From Methanobacteriota archaeon (lineage in GTDB: Archaea > Thermoplasmatota > Thermoplasmata > RBG-16-68-12), in contig JAIBJG010000006.1 in assembly GCA_020029475.1 (NCBI GenBank), positions 1 through 39,653 on the forward strand: DNA of 39,653 nucleotides, read 5' to 3'. Made by a program: the position numbers and the translations under genes. The notes under the pieces are model-generated. The model did no database searches, was not told the origin of the DNA, and worked only from the letters and a program-made list of their open reading frames with translations. Below, in pieces: positions 19,509 to 28,946 of the stretch (within the stretch, counting starts at the first letter, position 1; each line of letters starts with the position of its first letter).

Positions 19509-19555
19509 AGCGGGGGAACCTTTAAGCGACCTCCCATGCTTCATCGGGGTTGCCT

Positions 19556-21499
19556 ATGGTCCCTCGCCGGAGGACCTTGGGCGCTCCCCGCCCGCGCGGC
19601 CTTCGCCGGGACGAACGGGGCGTCGCGTCCACGGTCGCCACGATGCTCTCGCTCCTCGTGATCCTCCTCTTCCTCGACCTCGCGATCGTCGAGATCGTCC
19701 CCCGACAGCAGAACGACGCGGAGTTCATGACGACGCAATCCGCGATCTCGAGCTTCCAGCAGATCCACGGACTCGCGCAGGGCGCGGTGGTCCCCGGCGG
19801 GGACTCGTTGGGGTCGCCCGGGATCACGGTCGCAATCCCCCTCGGGACCCTCGGCGTCTCCCCCCTCCAGGCCCCCACGGCGGGGACCCTCACGTTCGAC
19901 CCCACCTCCGGCAGCGCGCAGATGTGGTTCACGTTCGTCCCCCACTTCCGGCGCGGGGAGGTCACCCACGTCGACCAGGACATCGTCCTCGTGATCGACA
20001 GCTCCGGCTCGATGGCGCAGAACGACCCGACGCGGCTGCGGGTCTCGGGCGCGAAGGAGTACATCGGTCGGCTCTCGTGCCCGGACCACGTCGCGATCGT
20101 CGACTTCGACAACGACGCCTTCCTCACGAAGCAAAACGTTGGCGGTGCGCCGCACCACCTGACGACGGTCTCCCACAACTGCTTCCCGAACTTCAACGAG
20201 GCGAAGACGGACGTGGACACGATCGACCAGAGCGGGAGCACGAACGGCGGGGGGGCCCTGTACGTTGCGGTGAACGAGCTCCTCGGGTACGGGGACCCGA
20301 GGCGGGCGCGGGTGATTATCTTCCTGACGGACGGACAGAACACGATATGCACTCCGATTCCGCCTTGTTTTGATCCCGACGGCCCGGGAGGCCAGACGGC
20401 GGGCAGTGGCGCCGCCAGCGACGCCTTGGCGAAGCAGCAGGCCCGGCGGGCCCGGGACAACGGGATCGTGATCTACACGATCGGCCTCGGCCCCGACATG
20501 GACTCGCCCAACCCCCGGTGCCCGGGCGGCGAGGTGAGGGGATGCTTGAAGGAAATCGCTGACCTCACGGGCGGGACGTACTACGACGCCCCGACCGCGG
20601 CGTCGATCCGCTGGATCTACTACGAGATCTCCCGGCACTTCACGGGCGCGTTCGTGTGCGGGGACCTCACCTCCGGGGACACGGGTTCCGGGAGGCTCTC
20701 CCTCGAACTCCGGAACCGGGAGTTCCCGTCCCAGACGATCTCGTACGAGTCCGGCGGCGTCGTACGGACGCAGTCGGACGGCGGGCGCGTCCTCGCCGGA
20801 CCCGGGGTGCAGTGGCACAGCACGGACCCGAAGGGGCCCCAGGGCGAGCTCACCCTGGACCTCGTCGCCCTCACGGGACAGGAGTTCCGCGTGGACGGCT
20901 CGGAGAACCAGCTCGTCTCGATCCGGCCCGTGGCCCGGGACCTCCAAGAGCTCGCGATCACGAAGGTGAACCTCACGGACGCGAACAACTTCCTGACGTC
21001 CGAGAAGGCGATCCTCGACTACTGGACGACGCAGGGCGCGTCCACCGCCAACGCGACGGCGAACGTGAAGGGAAAGATCGACCAGGTAAAGACGGCCCTC
21101 ACCGCCGGCCAGAACCACGTGAACCAGGGCAACCTCACCGCGGCGAAGTTCGACATCGACTCCGCGTCCGCGAGGCTCTCGGACGTGATCGCCCAGGCGC
21201 AGACGGAAGCGACCGCGGGGACGATGCAGCAGTGGCTCGCGGACGACACGACGGACGACATGCTCCTCCAGGCGTGCTACCTCACGCAGTGGGCGAACTG
21301 GTACGAGGGGGTGTCCCTCGAGATCACGAGCGTGGACGCCCTCGCCTGGGAGGCGTGGCTGAGCCGCGCCGCGACGTCGACGAAGATGCAGTACATCGTC
21401 AGCCGCCCCGGGAACGGCAACACCGCGATCCTGACGATCCGCGCGGTGGACAAGGTCACGATCGAGCGCCGGATCCTCTCCGTGTCCCTCTCCGGGTAG
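19556..21499 (+). CDS. VWA domain protein with type IV pilin-like N-terminus
   Basis: N-term RRDERGVASTVATMLSLLVILLFLDLAIVEI; VWA MIDAS motif DIVLVIDSSGSMAQND...; ARVIIFLTDGQNT. Confidence 0.85.
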   Translation: MVPRRRTLGAPRPRGLRRDERGVASTVATMLSLLVILLFLDLAIVEIVPRQQNDAEFMTTQSAISSFQQIHGLAQGAVVPGGDSLGSPGITVAIPLGTLGVSPLQAPTAGTLTFDPTSGSAQMWFTFVPHFRRGEVTHVDQDIVLVIDSSGSMAQNDPTRLRVSGAKEYIGRLSCPDHVAIVDFDNDAFLTKQNVGGAPHHLTTVSHNCFPNFNEAKTDVDTIDQSGSTNGGGALYVAVNELLGYGDPRRARVIIFLTDGQNTICTPIPPCFDPDGPGGQTAGSGAASDALAKQQARRARDNGIVIYTIGLGPDMDSPNPRCPGGEVRGCLKEIADLTGGTYYDAPTAASIRWIYYEISRHFTGAFVCGDLTSGDTGSGRLSLELRNREFPSQTISYESGGVVRTQSDGGRVLAGPGVQWHSTDPKGPQGELTLDLVALTGQEFRVDGSENQLVSIRPVARDLQELAITKVNLTDANNFLTSEKAILDYWTTQGASTANATANVKGKIDQVKTALTAGQNHVNQGNLTAAKFDIDSASARLSDVIAQAQTEATAGTMQQWLADDTTDDMLLQACYLTQWANWYEGVSLEITSVDALAWEAWLSRAATSTKMQYIVSRPGNGNTAILTIRAVDKVTIERRILSVSLSG

Positions 21500-21529: not shown

Positions 21530-22447
21530 TCACCAGCCTGCGAGAACGCTGACCCGCAGGCGGTCCCCCAGGCCCGGGTCCGCGTACCCGCCGACGAGCG
21601 GCGCGGCGCGCGGCGCCGCGAGGCGGACCTCGCGGGCGACCTCCCCCGCCAGGGCCTCCCCCCAGTCCGGGGCCGCGACGATCGCGACGATCCCCCCGAG
21701 GAGGTCCGGGTCCCTCGGGAGCCACGGGGACGCGAACGCCTCCTCCACCGCCGCGTACGCGCGGTGCTTCCCCTCCCCGCTCCCGCCCCCGAACCGCCAC
21801 CGGGCCCTCGATTGCAGGAATCCCCGCAATGTCGCGGCGTCCGTCCGGGTCATCGCCCGGGCGAGGTCGACGAGGGGGCGGACCATGATCTCCCCGAGGA
21901 CCTGGAACGCCCGCAGGAGGGGGAGCTGGGGGGCGAGCCTCAGGAGCTCGTCGTTCGAGAACGCGACGAGGCCGTCCACCTTCCTCGAGAGGAGGGCGAG
22001 GGCCCGCTCCGCCGCGACGCGCCGGTTGATCCCCTCCGCGGTGAACGGGGTCGCGGCGAGGCCCAGGGTCGCGGTCCCGAGGATCCTCGCGACCCGCCCG
22101 ACGAGGGCCGCGGCGGGCCCGCCGGTCTCCCCGCCGAGCCCCGCGAGGGGCACGACGAGGTCGTGGTTCAGGATCGCCCCGGAGATCCCCTTCTCCTCGG
22201 GGGTGGACAGGGTCTTCACCGCGGCGTCGTCCATCGACGCGAGGCCGAGGAGGGACTCCCGGGGGAGGAGGAGGCGTGCGGGGATCCCCGCCATGGACCG
22301 GTGCGCGGCGTCGTTCAGGGCGACCCGCGTGAGGCCGAGGTCCGCCGGCACCTGTTGGAGGACGTTGCAGCCCGCCCCGCCGCAGCCTACGACCGCAATC
22401 CGCGGCGGCACCGGGTCTCCCTGCCCCAAGCGGAGGACGTCCGGCAT
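21530..22447 (-). CDS. Divergent FtsZ-like/tubulin-superfamily protein
   Basis: RIAVVGCGGAGCNVLQQ (FtsZ-type N-terminal loop), GLGGETGGPAAALVGRVARILG at the GGGTGTG position, TPFTAEGINRRVAAERALALLSRKVDGLVAFSNDELL, ...AYAAVEEAFASPWL. Confidence 0.75.
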   Translation of the reverse strand: MPDVLRLGQGDPVPPRIAVVGCGGAGCNVLQQVPADLGLTRVALNDAAHRSMAGIPARLLLPRESLLGLASMDDAAVKTLSTPEEKGISGAILNHDLVVPLAGLGGETGGPAAALVGRVARILGTATLGLAATPFTAEGINRRVAAERALALLSRKVDGLVAFSNDELLRLAPQLPLLRAFQVLGEIMVRPLVDLARAMTRTDAATLRGFLQSRARWRFGGGSGEGKHRAYAAVEEAFASPWLPRDPDLLGGIVAIVAAPDWGEALAGEVAREVRLAAPRAAPLVGGYADPGLGDRLRVSVLAGW

Positions 22448-22769: not shown

Positions 22770-23972
22770 ATGCATGAAATCGTCTGCGTGGGGGACGTCC
22801 ACGAAGGGATCTCGTTCGGGTTCCGCGTGGATCCCGAAACGGCGATCTCGGAGCGGGCCCTGGACCTCCACCGGAACTTCGCCCGGGCCGCGGCGTGGGC
22901 GATCGAGCACGGGACGAAGCTCTTCATCGTCCTCGGGGACCTGTTCGACCGCCCGAACGTCGCCCCCGTGTTCCGGGAGCTCGTCCGGAAGGACGTGATC
23001 GAGCCCCTCGGGAAGGCGGGGATCGAGGTGTGGCTCCTCGCGGGGAACCACGACCAGCCCCGGGCGGACGCGCGGTCCACGAGCTTGGAGGACTTCCGCG
23101 GGTACCCGCACGTCCGCGTGTTCCGGAGCCCCGAGGCGGTCGAGAAGGAGGTCGCGGGCCACCGGGTCGGGTTCCTGATGCTCCCGTACCTCCACCCCGA
23201 GCAGGTCCTCGAGAACGCGAAGGGGAAGGGGATCGAGGAGGTGGAGGGCCTCACGATCGAGGAAGCGTACGTCGTCGCCCGCTCCCTTTGGAAGGGGTGG
23301 ATCGCGCAGCACGCGGAATCGATGAAGGACTCGACGTTCCGGCTCGTCCTCGGCCATTACTACGTGGAGGGCGCGCGGGTGTCGAGCACGACGAACATCG
23401 AGGTGATCCCCGGGGAGTTCAGCTTCACGCGGGACATGATCCCGCCCTCCGTGGACCTCGCGGTGATGGGGCACATCCATCTCCACCAGACGATCTGGGG
23501 GAACGTCGTGTACACGGGAGCGCCCGAGCGGATCGACTGGGGGGAGCGGGGGGACCCGAAGGGGTTCCTCGCCCTGAGCCCGGAGACGAAGGCGTGGGAG
23601 TTCATCGAGCTCCCCGCGCGGACGATGGAGAAGATCGAGGTCACGGTCCGGGAGGGGGACGACCCGACGGCGACGATCCTGGCGGGGCTCCCGCCCGCCG
23701 TGAAGGACTCGATGGTGCGCCTCGAGGTCACGATCCCGGACGCGCTGCGGATCCGCGTGGACGATCGGAAGATCGCGGAGCGCCTCCAGGACGCGTTCCA
23801 CTACGAGGTGCGATGGATCGCCGTGGAGCGGGAGACCGTCGCCCCCTCGGAGTACACGCTGGACCCGCTGCGGCTCCTCGGGGACTTCGTGGACCGCACG
23901 TTCGAGAAGGACCCGCGGCGGGACGCAATCCGGACGGAGGGCGAGAAGATCCTCCGGGAGGTGCTCGGGTGA
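22770..23972 (+). CDS. mre11: DNA double-strand break repair nuclease Mre11
   Basis: CVGDVHEG, VLGDLFDRP, LLAGNHDQPR, VLGHYY, VMGHIHLHQT phosphoesterase motifs; followed by Rad50. Confidence 0.93.
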   Translation: MHEIVCVGDVHEGISFGFRVDPETAISERALDLHRNFARAAAWAIEHGTKLFIVLGDLFDRPNVAPVFRELVRKDVIEPLGKAGIEVWLLAGNHDQPRADARSTSLEDFRGYPHVRVFRSPEAVEKEVAGHRVGFLMLPYLHPEQVLENAKGKGIEEVEGLTIEEAYVVARSLWKGWIAQHAESMKDSTFRLVLGHYYVEGARVSSTTNIEVIPGEFSFTRDMIPPSVDLAVMGHIHLHQTIWGNVVYTGAPERIDWGERGDPKGFLALSPETKAWEFIELPARTMEKIEVTVREGDDPTATILAGLPPAVKDSMVRLEVTIPDALRIRVDDRKIAERLQDAFHYEVRWIAVERETVAPSEYTLDPLRLLGDFVDRTFEKDPRRDAIRTEGEKILREVLG

Positions 23973-26377
23973 AGGCGGACGAGGCGGTCGAGTCCGTCTC
24001 CGAGGCGGTCCCCGAGTCCGCGGCGTCGGGCACGGGCTTCGTGATCGAGGAAATCGAGCTGAAGGGGTTCATGCGGTACCTCGAGAGGACGGAGCCGCCG
24101 ATCCGGTTCCCGGAGAAATTCACCGTGATCACGGGGAAGACGGGGGCGGGGAAGAGCTCGATCCTCGACGCAATCACGTTCGTCCTGTACAAGGCGACGA
24201 CGCGGACGGACCCGCCCGCGAACGCGACGATCAACGAGATCTGCCGGCCCGGCGGGTACGTGCGGGTCGCGTTCCGGCAGGGGGAGACCCGTTACGAAGT
24301 GAAGCGGGGGTTCACGTCGAAGAAGGAGGCGTACCTCGAGCTCGCGCGGGACGGCGAGCCGATCGGCGGGTCGATCCCGGAGCGGGAGCACGCGATCCGG
24401 GACATCCTCGGCCTCGACTACGCGGGGTTCACGAACTCCACGTTCGTCCGCCAGGAGGAAATGAAGGACCTCGGGTCCCAGCGGGGGTCCGACCGTCTCC
24501 TGATCTTCCAGAAGCTGTTCCGGCTCGAGACGTTCGAGCGGGCCCAAGAGCGCGCGAAGGAGCGGCACGCGGAGGTCCACGCCCAGGTCGAGTCCCAGGA
24601 GCGGGAGATCGCGACGCGTGCGGAACGAGTGTCGAAGCTACCGGAGCTCGCCGCCGGGATGGAAGGCCTCGAACGGGAGAGCACGGAGAGCGCCGCCCGC
24701 GTCGCGGGTCTTGCCCGCCAGACGGACGATGCGATCGCCAGGTTGAAGGAGCTCGAGTCGAAACACTCCGAGTACCTGAAGGCGGAGTCCTCGATCGCGC
24801 AGCACGGGAGACGGATCGCGGAGCTCGACGCGAAGATCGCGAGCGTCACGGCGGAGGCGGAGAGGGCGGAGCGGCTGAAGGCGGAGATCTTTCTCCTCGA
24901 GGAGGAGACGAAGGACTTCGAGCGGTTCCAGGAGGACGGCGAGCGGCTGAAGGACATCCAGCAGCGGCACCAGCTCCGGCTGAAGGACCGCGAGGCGGCG
25001 TACCAGCGGCAGCAGGAGTTTCTCCGCGAACACGACAGGAAGTTGAAGCAGCTCAGTGAGAAGCTATTCGCCGCGGAGCGGCGGGTCGCGGAACTGAAGA
25101 CGGACATCACGAAAGAGCAGGCGTTCGAGTTCCTTCGGCAGGACGGTGCCCTCGAGGAGCGCCTCGCGCGTATCGAGAAGGAGGTCGCGTGGCTCGCGGA
25201 CCGGCCGGACATCCTCAAAGAGCTCGACTTGGACCGCCGCAAGGCGGGGATCCTGCGGGAGCGGGTCCAAACGGACGTCGCGAAGATCAGCGGGGACTCC
25301 TTCCTCCTCTCCGAGCTCCGCCGCCAGATCGACGACGTGAAGGCGGAGATTCGCACGGTCAACGAGACGAAGTCCGCCCGCCTCGCTGAGTTCGACGCGC
25401 AACTGGAGTCCGTGGACCGAGAGGTCGCGAAGATCGGCTTCACGGACGACGCCCGGAAGCGCCTCGGCGAGGTCCGCGAGATCCTTGTGAAGCTGAGGCC
25501 GCGGCGGGATGCCCTCGAGGAGACGAAGCGAAATCTCCGCGCCTCCGGGGACGCCTCGAAGGTCCTCGAGGAGCTCCGGAGGCAAGCCGAGTCCGCGCGG
25601 GAAGAACTCGAGGCGTTGGAGGCGTCGATGGCGGACCTGACGGCGGCGGAGCGCGCATACGGGGCCGCGAAGGACGGGCTCGAAGGCCTCCAGAGGGACC
25701 TCTCGGACGCGCGGTCCGCGGTCTCCCTCACGGAGGGCCTCCTGACGGAGCGCCGTCGCGCGATCGCGGAACTCCGGGAGGACGACCGCCGGAACGCGGA
25801 GGCGACGGCGAAGCTCAAGTCCATGTTCCAGGAGCGGGAGCTCCTCGCGATCCTCAAAGACCAGGTGTTCCACAAGAAGGGGGTCGTGATGTTCGCGGTC
25901 CACCAGCTCCTTCCCGGACTCCAGATCGAAGCCTCAAGAAACCTCGCGGACCTCACGGACGGTCGGTTCTCGAAGATCCGCCTCGAGACGTACGAGGAGG
26001 GGAAGGGGCACGGGATCCGGATCCTCGTCGAGGGCGTCGACGGCCTCTGGCACGACGTCGGGGAGTTCAGTGGCGGGGAGAAGACGCAGATCAACGCGGC
26101 CCTCCGGTTCGCGATCGCGAAGGAGCTCGCATCGATGCCCCAAGTCGGCCGCACGTACGCGCGGATGAAGACCCTGTTTATCGACGAGGGGGACATCGGC
26201 TCCCTCGACCCCGCGGTCTCCAGGGACCTCTTCGTCGGAAAGCTGTTCAAGATGGGCGAGTTCTTCGACAAGGTGATCCTGATTACGCACATCGAGGACG
26301 TCGCGGAGAAGTTCCCCGGACGGATCCGCGTCTCGATGACGCCGAAGCAGGAGTCCCGGGTCGAGTACCTCCCATGA
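23969..26377 (+). CDS. rad50: DNA double-strand break repair ATPase Rad50 (no CxxC zinc hook)
   Basis: GTG 23969 overlapping the mre11 stop; Walker A GKTGAGKSSILDAI; signature EFSGGEKTQINAALRFAIAKEL; Walker B KTLFIDEGDIGSLD; long coiled coil. Confidence 0.92.
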   Translation: MKADEAVESVSEAVPESAASGTGFVIEEIELKGFMRYLERTEPPIRFPEKFTVITGKTGAGKSSILDAITFVLYKATTRTDPPANATINEICRPGGYVRVAFRQGETRYEVKRGFTSKKEAYLELARDGEPIGGSIPEREHAIRDILGLDYAGFTNSTFVRQEEMKDLGSQRGSDRLLIFQKLFRLETFERAQERAKERHAEVHAQVESQEREIATRAERVSKLPELAAGMEGLERESTESAARVAGLARQTDDAIARLKELESKHSEYLKAESSIAQHGRRIAELDAKIASVTAEAERAERLKAEIFLLEEETKDFERFQEDGERLKDIQQRHQLRLKDREAAYQRQQEFLREHDRKLKQLSEKLFAAERRVAELKTDITKEQAFEFLRQDGALEERLARIEKEVAWLADRPDILKELDLDRRKAGILRERVQTDVAKISGDSFLLSELRRQIDDVKAEIRTVNETKSARLAEFDAQLESVDREVAKIGFTDDARKRLGEVREILVKLRPRRDALEETKRNLRASGDASKVLEELRRQAESAREELEALEASMADLTAAERAYGAAKDGLEGLQRDLSDARSAVSLTEGLLTERRRAIAELREDDRRNAEATAKLKSMFQERELLAILKDQVFHKKGVVMFAVHQLLPGLQIEASRNLADLTDGRFSKIRLETYEEGKGHGIRILVEGVDGLWHDVGEFSGGEKTQINAALRFAIAKELASMPQVGRTYARMKTLFIDEGDIGSLDPAVSRDLFVGKLFKMGEFFDKVILITHIEDVAEKFPGRIRVSMTPKQESRVEYLP

Positions 26378-27402
26378 GTTTCGCGGGCGAGATGCGGTCG
26401 GAGCTGGCGAAGGCCCTGAAGGCCCACGAGGACTCCGCGATTCCGCAGGACGCGGTCCCGGAGTTCCACGGGTTCGAGCCCGCCCCGCAGGTCCGGGACC
26501 TCGTCGCCGTGGACGGCTCGTACAATTTCCTCCTGAACATCTCCAGCTGGTGGCTCGCCCTGATCTCCGTCGCGCTCCTGCGGTACCGGTTCGATGGGGC
26601 CGCGTACCACCGGGAGGACTGGCGACTCGTCCAACGGGCCGTCGGGGTCTCGACGTGGGCACAATACGTGGAGACGCAGGACGAGCGGCTCCGGGCCCTG
26701 TACGAGTTCACCCGGAACTCCCCGGAGCAGCACCGGGAGATGGTGAACGAGCTCCGGCGGTTCATCGAGGGCGAGGTCGCCGCGAACTACGCGTCGGACT
26801 CCGACGGGCTCATCGTCGCCGTGGACGGCGCCCTCCAGGAGTTCCCGAAGCGCTTCGAGGTGATGGAGCAGCTCGTGAGGGTATGTGAGAAGCGGGGGCA
26901 CCTCCTGGTCGGGGTGTCGAAGGATTCCCAGCTCCACGCGTTCGGCCAGACCCTGACGGACGAGGACTTCCTGAAGCGGTGCGAGTCCCGGGCGGGGGGC
27001 ACCGGCCCCGCGTACGTGAGGGCGCCGCCGAGCGTGCCCGTGGCGCAGAAGGGACTCCTCCTCGGGGACGTGTACTACGTCCGGTTCCACGCGCACGCCC
27101 CGAAGTGGTTCCGGGTGGACCTCGGCACGCACAAGGACGACCCGGAGTTCGTCTTCGGCCAGGTCGCGCCGTACTGCCGCTCCCTGATCTCGATTGGGTA
27201 CCCGCTCCCCCTCCTGGAGGCCCACCGGATGGCGGTCACCGTGCGGCAGCTCCGGGGCGCGTACCAGGAGATGATCATCCGCACCGCCACGGGGATGGGA
27301 ATGGACATAAGAGCGGTCCTCAATGGGCTCACGGAGATGGAGGGCCGGAAGCGCGGGGCGTTCCACGAGTACCTCGACCGGATCTCCAGGGGACTTCGAT
27401 GA
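26374..27402 (+). CDS. nurA: DNA repair nuclease NurA
   Basis: DLVAVDGSYNF, GLIVAVDGAL, GVSKDSQL, YYVRFHAHAPKWFRVDL, YPLPLLEAHRMA; ATGA overlap with rad50. Confidence 0.9.
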   Translation: MSFAGEMRSELAKALKAHEDSAIPQDAVPEFHGFEPAPQVRDLVAVDGSYNFLLNISSWWLALISVALLRYRFDGAAYHREDWRLVQRAVGVSTWAQYVETQDERLRALYEFTRNSPEQHREMVNELRRFIEGEVAANYASDSDGLIVAVDGALQEFPKRFEVMEQLVRVCEKRGHLLVGVSKDSQLHAFGQTLTDEDFLKRCESRAGGTGPAYVRAPPSVPVAQKGLLLGDVYYVRFHAHAPKWFRVDLGTHKDDPEFVFGQVAPYCRSLISIGYPLPLLEAHRMAVTVRQLRGAYQEMIIRTATGMGMDIRAVLNGLTEMEGRKRGAFHEYLDRISRGLR

Positions 27403-28946
27403 AGATCGGGGAGATCGTGTCCGCGAGCGTGATCGACGGCCTCCTCGCGAAGCTCCAGATCGCGGACCCGGAGGAGCTCCGGATCGCGTACCCCGTGATC
27501 GTCGAGGGGGAGCGATACGACTTCTACTGCCTCGTGGAGGACGTGATGAACGAGGAGAGCGACGTCGCGAAACAGCTCGCGGGGTCCGCGGTGAAGGACG
27601 TCGTCCTCCCCAGCGGCCAGAGCGACGAGAGTTTCTCGGGCCCGATCTTCTACTCGATGGCGAAGCTCCGCCCGATCCAACTGATCGAGAAGGCCTCCGG
27701 GAACCTGAGCGAGCCCCAGACGATCCCGCCGTACTTCTCCGCGTGCCGGTACGCGACGAAGACCGATGTGGACCTGATCTACGAGGTGACGCCGAAGTCC
27801 GCGCCCGTCGGGACGATCTCCGGCGTCGAGAAGTTCCACGTCCACCTCGACTTCGGGAAGCTCGCGGAGAAGCCGTTCGCGATCTTCGGCCGGACGGGGA
27901 CGGGGAAGTCGATCCTGAACAAGCTGATCTGCTGCGGGATCCTCGCGAAGGACGCGGGGAGCGTCCTCCTGTTCGACATGCACTCCGAGTACGGCGTGTA
28001 CTCGAAGACGGATTCCACCCAGGGCCTGAAGTACTGGTTCCCGGACAAGGTGGAGATCTTCTCGCTGGACCCGGAGAACAAGGAGGGGTGGCCGTTCCGG
28101 CTGAACCTGAAGGAGATCACCCCGGAGGACCTCATCATCGCCCTCCAGAACCTGACCCCCGCGATGGTGGACGCGCTGTACCAGATCGACAAGACGAAGG
28201 GGGGCCGGGACCTGATCACCGCGATCAAGCAGGCGTCCATGGAGGAGCTCGGGGAGGAGCGGGCCCACGAGATGTCCCTCGCGGGGCTGAAGCGGCGGAT
28301 CGGCCGGCTCGACCGCCTCCCGTTCCTCTCGGAGACCGGGAAGGACGCGTTCGGCCAGATGACGGAGCTGATCCGGGACGGGAAGTCCGTCGTCCTCGAC
28401 TTCGGGGACTACGGCACGGACCAGATGGTGTACCTGTTCGTCGCGAACGTGATCTCCCGCCGGCTCTTCGACCTGTACACGGAGCGGAACGCGGAGTTCC
28501 CGAGGCTCCTGCTCTTCCTGGAGGAGGCCCACAAGTTCCTCGACCCCGCGATCGCGGACCTCGCGCCGACCTTCAGCAGGCTCGCGCGGGAGACCCGGAA
28601 GTTCAATCTCATCCTCGCTCTGATCGACCAGCGGCCCGCCCGGATCAGCGACGAGGTGCGGAGCCAGCTCGCGAACCGGTTCGTGATGTCCCTGAAGGAG
28701 CCGAGCGACGTGGAGGCGGCCCTCGCGGGGGTCCCGGACAAGGCGATGTGGACGAACATCCTGTCGAAGATCCCGAACCGGACGGTGGCGGTGATGGGGG
28801 ACGCGATCCGGATCCCGACGGTGATCGACGTGATGGAGTACAACGACGAGAACGTGGAGGCCCACATCGTGGGGCGGGAGCGGATCACGGAGGAGAAGCT
28901 CTCGAAGATCGCGTCGAAGGCGGACGAGGTGTTCGGCCGGCGATAG
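27399..28946 (+). CDS. herA: Bipolar DNA helicase HerA
   Basis: FAIFGRTGTGKSILNKLI, VLLFDMHSEYG, RLLLFLEEAHKFLDP, LALIDQRPARISDEVRSQL; ATGA overlap with nurA. Confidence 0.93.
   Translation: MKIGEIVSASVIDGLLAKLQIADPEELRIAYPVIVEGERYDFYCLVEDVMNEESDVAKQLAGSAVKDVVLPSGQSDESFSGPIFYSMAKLRPIQLIEKASGNLSEPQTIPPYFSACRYATKTDVDLIYEVTPKSAPVGTISGVEKFHVHLDFGKLAEKPFAIFGRTGTGKSILNKLICCGILAKDAGSVLLFDMHSEYGVYSKTDSTQGLKYWFPDKVEIFSLDPENKEGWPFRLNLKEITPEDLIIALQNLTPAMVDALYQIDKTKGGRDLITAIKQASMEELGEERAHEMSLAGLKRRIGRLDRLPFLSETGKDAFGQMTELIRDGKSVVLDFGDYGTDQMVYLFVANVISRRLFDLYTERNAEFPRLLLFLEEAHKFLDPAIADLAPTFSRLARETRKFNLILALIDQRPARISDEVRSQLANRFVMSLKEPSDVEAALAGVPDKAMWTNILSKIPNRTVAVMGDAIRIPTVIDVMEYNDENVEAHIVGRERITEEKLSKIASKADEVFGRR

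Follow-up and report, generated by a model that had tools for sequence, protein, structure and literature searches.

A conserved helical apex in the place of the zinc hook in Rad50 from a group of soil and sediment archaea

The zinc hook at the apex of Rad50 is generally present in the three domains of life (PMC9569753). Apical dimerization is the function that this hook shares with the hinge of SMC proteins, and fission yeast Rad50 tolerates a MukB hinge at its apex (PMC6969161), as B. subtilis Smc tolerates a Rad50 hook (PMC5344682). Scattered losses of the hook in bacterial SbcC may have been noted earlier. A literature search that missed most subscription journals found no paper on a natural hookless Rad50, and priority is not established; what is new here is a Rad50 with a different apex.

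The window, meaning the whole 39,653-nucleotide stretch of Thermoplasmatota DNA that was analyzed, encodes a Rad50 whose N-terminal head finds its best sequence match among solved structures in archaeal Rad50, represented by the proteins of Methanocaldococcus jannaschii and Pyrococcus furiosus (3aux, 5f3w and 1ii8). The apex of those proteins bears a zinc-dependent CxxC hook (1L8D), whereas PDB searches gave no convincing match to the hookless apex. With the hooked Rad50/SbcC proteins of its own class (L069-L078, L082, L096-L107 and L129-L135), which are mostly about 805-880 aa long, the protein shares the head halves and the antiparallel coil, and mre11 adjoins rad50 in most of their loci that have flanking sequence. 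Their tip, however, reads CPxC...RPL, in contrast to an ADRP-type turn between two conserved helices in the hookless clade. The window Rad50 also resembles the ASRPs (coalescin ClsN, Sph) in joining archaeal Rad50-like heads to a coil, but its weak match to their NCBIfam model (NF045487, 42.8 bits) falls far under the cut-off of 300 bits, and it lacks the zinc hook that most ASRPs retain (PMC9389158). Zinc-free apical dimerization would be a working principle shared with SMC proteins such as Smc and MukB. Unlike these, the protein has no globular hinge: the apex consists of about 57 residues in two helices that form a predicted hairpin, and it has no Pfam hinge match. The best of the weak fold matches to the apex include generic stretches of coil from Smc5/6 and Pyrococcus Smc, and the window's genome has a separate SMC-length protein (a 1230-aa frame, C5).

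Gene neighborhood and ATPase head

The genes of the locus are as follows.

22770-23972, + strand: mre11, a 400-aa calcineurin-like phosphoesterase (PF00149, E 1.9e-11; TIGR00619 SbcD, 53 bits, below the cut-off)
23969-26377, + strand: rad50, hookless, 802 aa, with a GTG start overlapping the mre11 stop (GTGA); the sole Rad50-type gene of its genome
26374-27402, + strand: nurA nuclease, 342 aa (PF09376, E 3e-6), with an ATGA overlap with rad50
27399-28946, + strand: herA helicase, 515 aa (PF01935, E 3.7e-24), with an ATGA overlap with nurA

The rad50 open reading frame is unbroken over exactly 23969-26377 (+), and a 4-nt overlap is found at every junction of mre11-rad50-nurA-herA. A TATA-like box (cctatata) lies about 30 nt 5' of the mre11 ATG, and the Mre11 sequence contains the motifs GDVH, GDLFDR, GNHD and GHIH. 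In all ortholog loci with sufficient flank, mre11 is located directly 5' of rad50, and the full mre11-rad50-nurA-herA order is repeated in most ortholog loci; in some, nurA-herA is set apart by extra sequence or absent from the stretch examined. The constant mre11 neighbor and the recurring gene order mark this protein as the working Rad50 of its lineage and not a stray SMC-like protein.

In eight relatives (L037, L040, L042, L043, L055, L064, L110 and L111), nurA-herA begins about 0.2-2.7 kb past rad50, and extra genes may intervene. Within the window, a 982-aa open frame runs antisense to rad50 and nurA (24418-27366, - strand); the G+C content is high, and the frame is most likely a shadow ORF. 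A 305-aa ORF (21530-22447, - strand) carries IAVVGCGGAGCNVL near its start, which by eye resembles an FtsZ/tubulin-like nucleotide-binding motif in an otherwise divergent protein. Also by eye, a 649-aa ORF (19550-21499, + strand) with an N-terminal hydrophobic segment displays a von Willebrand factor A-like DxSxS...DG pattern (VIDSSGS).

The following features were located in the Rad50 head.

24134-24160, + strand: Walker A GKTGAGKSS, residues 56-64 (sequence; kept in orthologs)
24242-24244, + strand: C92, the sole cysteine, located in the N-terminal lobe of the ATPase; some orthologs have V or F here
26066-26080, + strand: ABC signature FSGGE, residues 700-704 (sequence, ortholog alignment)
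26171-26188, + strand: Walker B TLFIDE, residues 735-740 (sequence, ortholog alignment)

The original prediction described a Rad50 with intact ATPase motifs and a single cysteine near its N terminus, and both statements stand. Walker A, the Q-loop (Q162 in FVRQEEM), the signature (extended form FSGGEKTQ, 700-707) and Walker B are all present, along with an ITH774 switch, and the only cysteine among the 802 residues is C92, within the ATPase head. Pfam matches on the protein are restricted to AAA_23/SMC_N-type head domains, and the Pfam search gave no match to the zinc hook family PF04423 in the window Rad50. Among curated NCBIfam families, SbcC and Rad50 come closest, with every score under the equivalog cut-off (TIGR00618, 125 bits versus 478.5; Rad50 equivalogs, about 106 bits versus 700-1000). 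These scores are those of a divergent lineage, and the equivalog names are not claimed. The identification as Rad50 is based instead on the split ABC head, the Mre11/SbcD partner gene alongside and the long antiparallel coil that AlphaFold2 places between the head halves. The top sequence matches among solved structures are archaeal Rad50 heads (3aux, E 5e-16), and the closest fold match of the AlphaFold2 model is the near-full-length Chaetomium Rad50 7zr1 (E 1e-18).

Architecture and conservation of the apex

Between the head halves, the protein is divided into the following elements.

24524-25093, + strand: N-terminal coiled-coil arm, residues 186-375 (AlphaFold2 helices)
25094-25111, + strand: joint before the apex, residues 376-381 (LKTDIT; T378 invariant; AlphaFold2, alignment)
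25112-25192, + strand: apical helix 1, residues 382-408, with invariant F386, L389, G393, L395, E397, R398, R401, I402, E405 and W408
25193-25204, + strand: tip turn of the ADRP type (LADR/P), residues 409-412, at the CPxC place of hooked relatives
25205-25282, + strand: apical helix 2, residues 413-438 (AlphaFold2, alignment)
25283-25291, + strand: second break, residues 439-441, opposite the first and followed by a conserved DSFxLSE (443-449)
25292-25867, + strand: C-terminal coiled-coil arm, residues 442-633 (AlphaFold2)

AlphaFold2, run with an input of 37 related sequences only, predicts the isolated apex with a mean pLDDT of 94 as a helical hairpin between the breaks at 376-381 and 439-441, and the full-length model contains the same apex elements. 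The hairpin core suits an antiparallel coiled coil, with positions 388/395/402/409 and 385/392/399/406 set against 416/419/426/430/433/437/440. An early guess at the apex, WLADRPDILKELD, corresponds to residues 408-420 (25190-25228), and the predicted tip turn falls within it, which bears the guess out. Residues 376-452 of the window protein include no Cys and no His, and no column of the apex alignment is conserved for either. No Pfam family covers the apex, where the scattered Pfam matches are generic coiled-coil noise. Searches of the PDB with the apex yielded nothing convincing by sequence (best E 0.1) and no fold match at E <= 0.001.

A conserved module without gaps spans residues 376-452. 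Most of the coil is variable (conservation of about 0.35-0.5 in blocks of 20 residues), but values climb to 0.5-0.7 at 381-460, where many residues are invariant, and the peak lies at residues 380-450; across the 106-aa apex region, 14 of the 106 columns are invariant (29-37 sequences) and the 37-sequence alignment contains no indel. Helix 1 is conserved on its core side as well as its outer side, which left conservation moments uninformative, and the residues of the outward face are invariant or nearly so (F386, R390, G393, E397, R401 and W408). At the outward b/c/f positions of the alignment, mean identity is 0.71 for helix 1 and 0.34 for helix 2, and none of the control windows along the coil (n = 285, 28 residues each) exceeds 0.50. 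No conserved matching surface was seen in the neighboring coil, where mean identity is 0.38-0.45.

A one-sided invariant face on helix 1 implies that a partner is needed. Because the coil offers no matching surface, a fold-back within the chain is less likely than contact with the same helix of a second copy or with another molecule. The proposal that this Rad50 has a different apical interface is supported, in the form of a conserved one-sided surface in the place of the hook. An antiparallel scan of helix 1 against helix 1' performed no better than shuffled sequences (observed 3.4 versus a null mean of 4.5), and a specific antiparallel register derived from the palindromic F386...W408 spacing was rejected because it did not beat the shuffles. 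Elsewhere in the coil, a conserved GD[VA]SK surrounds a predicted break (residues 525-528, 25541-25552), and H266 (24764-24766) is invariant.

Distribution and direction of the change

A scan of GTDB genomes produced 38 loci, from which the near-full-length orthologs were aligned (n = 37). These are about 800 aa in length and share 41-77% identity with the window Rad50, and the ortholog with 77% identity comes from a separate MAG. The earlier claim that the coil lacks a CxxC was borne out, as none occurs in the window Rad50 or in any of the 37 aligned orthologs. A lone Cys in 802 aa is by itself not far from chance expectation. The absence of the hook is not attributed to chance, because CxxC is found in 0 of 37 orthologs but in each of the 19 further Rad50/SbcC proteins identified in the class, whose tips carry CPxC or another CxxC like it. 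The orthologs all lack the hook, and the alternative that relatives retain CxxC while this copy has a local deletion fails; assembly error and local deletion are both ruled out by the CxxC-less, indel-free orthologs.

Of the 37 genomes of the order, 33 yield a single copy with a profile of the apex module, among them all 11 of high quality. In a broader sample, 7 of 390 evenly drawn genomes of the phylum match, 3 of these 7 lying outside the order, and the module also occurs in two further class-level families. A search with a hooked-Rad50 profile covered ten good genomes of the order, including the window's own, and revealed no additional Rad50 with a hook. In twelve genomes reached via the ortholog loci, the profile finds the hookless Rad50 alone; its other matches in the searched genomes are SMC-length or unrelated ABC frames. 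These searches cover sampled genomes, some of them incomplete MAGs, and exclude a hooked copy elsewhere less than fully. The weak PF04423 matches that were examined in the order (L074, L079, L084 and L085) proved to be zinc-ribbon-like CxxC of other proteins.

The nearest relatives are MAGs with the isolate names EA_22 and EA_19. Soil genomes from the Angelo Coast Range and the RBG dataset have been placed in the order RBG-16-68-12, Ca. Angelarchaeales (PMC9038741), and the relatives suggest that this is probably the order carrying the hookless Rad50. The hookless form is shared across this group of archaea from soil and sediment. MAGs labeled Methanocellales or Methanosarcinales (L049, L050, L054, L065 and L066) also have a hookless Rad50, and L065 is a closed genome. 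Provided that the depositors labeled them correctly, the gene possibly crossed a phylum border; the alternative is that the MAGs are mislabeled. A 6-kb contig filed as Candidatus Aminicenantes bacterium (L051) carries an archaeal-type mre11-rad50-nurA-herA, by contamination or transfer.

In a profile-profile comparison, hooked and hookless proteins align end to end with about 20% identity (probability 100, E 1e-63). The CPxC lies 372-387 residues past Walker A in most hooked relatives, and the hookless tip turn lies about 354 past it. Run against the window protein, the hooked-Rad50 profile gives two separate half-matches (24029-25183 and 25307-26368) and is silent across the apex. In a tree of the heads, which has long branches and no outgroup, all hookless sequences lie beyond one branch (99% SH-aLRT). 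This fits one origin of the hookless form, and the tree itself gives no direction; the direction is taken to be loss of the hook in this clade because the hook is general in three domains (PMC9569753). In two families of the class, hooked Rad50-like proteins (L096, L100 and L101; about 805-825 aa) are remote from other hooked Rad50s, with a branch length of 5.45.

Function of the apex

Replacement of the hook by a conserved helical apex is well supported. Taken together, the evidence makes it probable, at moderate confidence, that this is a genuine Mre11-partner Rad50 in which a zinc-independent apical contact, itself probably homotypic, took the place of the hook. Under this model, the CxxC zinc hook would have disappeared in an ancestor, and a conserved helical hairpin free of metal would have arisen at the apex. 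ATP and Mre11 would be bound by the head halves in the ordinary way, with the arms pairing in an antiparallel coiled coil of about 190 residues per side. At the tip, residues 382-438 would form a hairpin that two opposed breaks set off from the arm, with the outer face of helix 1 (F386, R390, G393, E397, R401 and W408) acting as a dedicated contact surface. Contact of helix 1 with helix 1' would join two Rad50 arms and so take over from the hook without zinc, either by closing the ring of Mre11 and Rad50 or by holding two complexes together. Metal-free joining of the arms is the simplest reading, since joining arms is what hook and hinge have in common and each can be swapped for the other in living cells. 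The apex surface is predicted to dimerize Rad50 arms, and the homotypic partner of the helix 1 face is a guess, since the pairing scan was no better than its shuffled controls.

Some residues of the invariant stripe on helix 1 are charged, and its partner could just as well be another protein or DNA. An apex of this kind might join no arms at all, the helix 1 face instead docking NurA, HerA, a replication/recombination factor or another protein, or DNA, while Mre11 and the heads alone hold the complex together. A one-sided invariant surface calls for some partner, whatever its nature, R390 and R401 belong to the stripe, nurA and herA adjoin rad50 in most loci, and a DNA contact has been proposed for the archaeal hook apex (review PMC10418313). 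Such docking is a serious rival but the less probable reading, given that the shared role of hook and hinge in Rad50/SMC proteins is apical dimerization (PMC6969161). Where NurA or HerA is the proposed partner, it also has to contend with L049, L050 and L065, in which full flanks place neither gene beside rad50 and the apex is unchanged.

Survival of a metal hook through His/carboxylate ligands or the cysteines of another protein appears very improbable, even with the invariant or nearly invariant acidic residues of the apex (E392, E397, E405, E422, D443 and E449). Carboxylates alone are a poor stand-in for a Cys4 zinc site, and the stretch 376-452 has neither Cys nor His to add to them, nor a column conserved for either. 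Relaxed selection could alone cost the CxxC and leave a degenerate hook with no function of its own, but this idea is scarcely credible and is contradicted by an apex that is the most conserved part of the coil, with its 14 invariant columns of 106 and no indels. Although the source MAG is fragmented into 136 contigs, an artifact of sequencing, assembly or annotation is refuted by MAGs from different sites that were assembled separately and show this form too, as do contigs titled chromosomes (L043, L046 and L048) or a complete genome (L065).

With a zinc-independent, probably homotypic contact as the preferred explanation, the lineage may represent a natural, clade-wide swap of the zinc hook for a protein-only dimerization module that is related neither to the hook nor to the SMC hinge, a wider claim on which confidence is evenly divided. 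The cells of this group must link their Rad50 arms, or use the tip, by other means. Laboratory swaps with an SMC hinge already suggested that linkage suffices (PMC6969161), and a lineage that has lost the hook and keeps another conserved structure there is their natural counterpart. The small size of the apex (about 57 residues) makes its assembly directly testable. If true, the contact proposed here would be a third solution for closing rings of the Rad50/SMC type.
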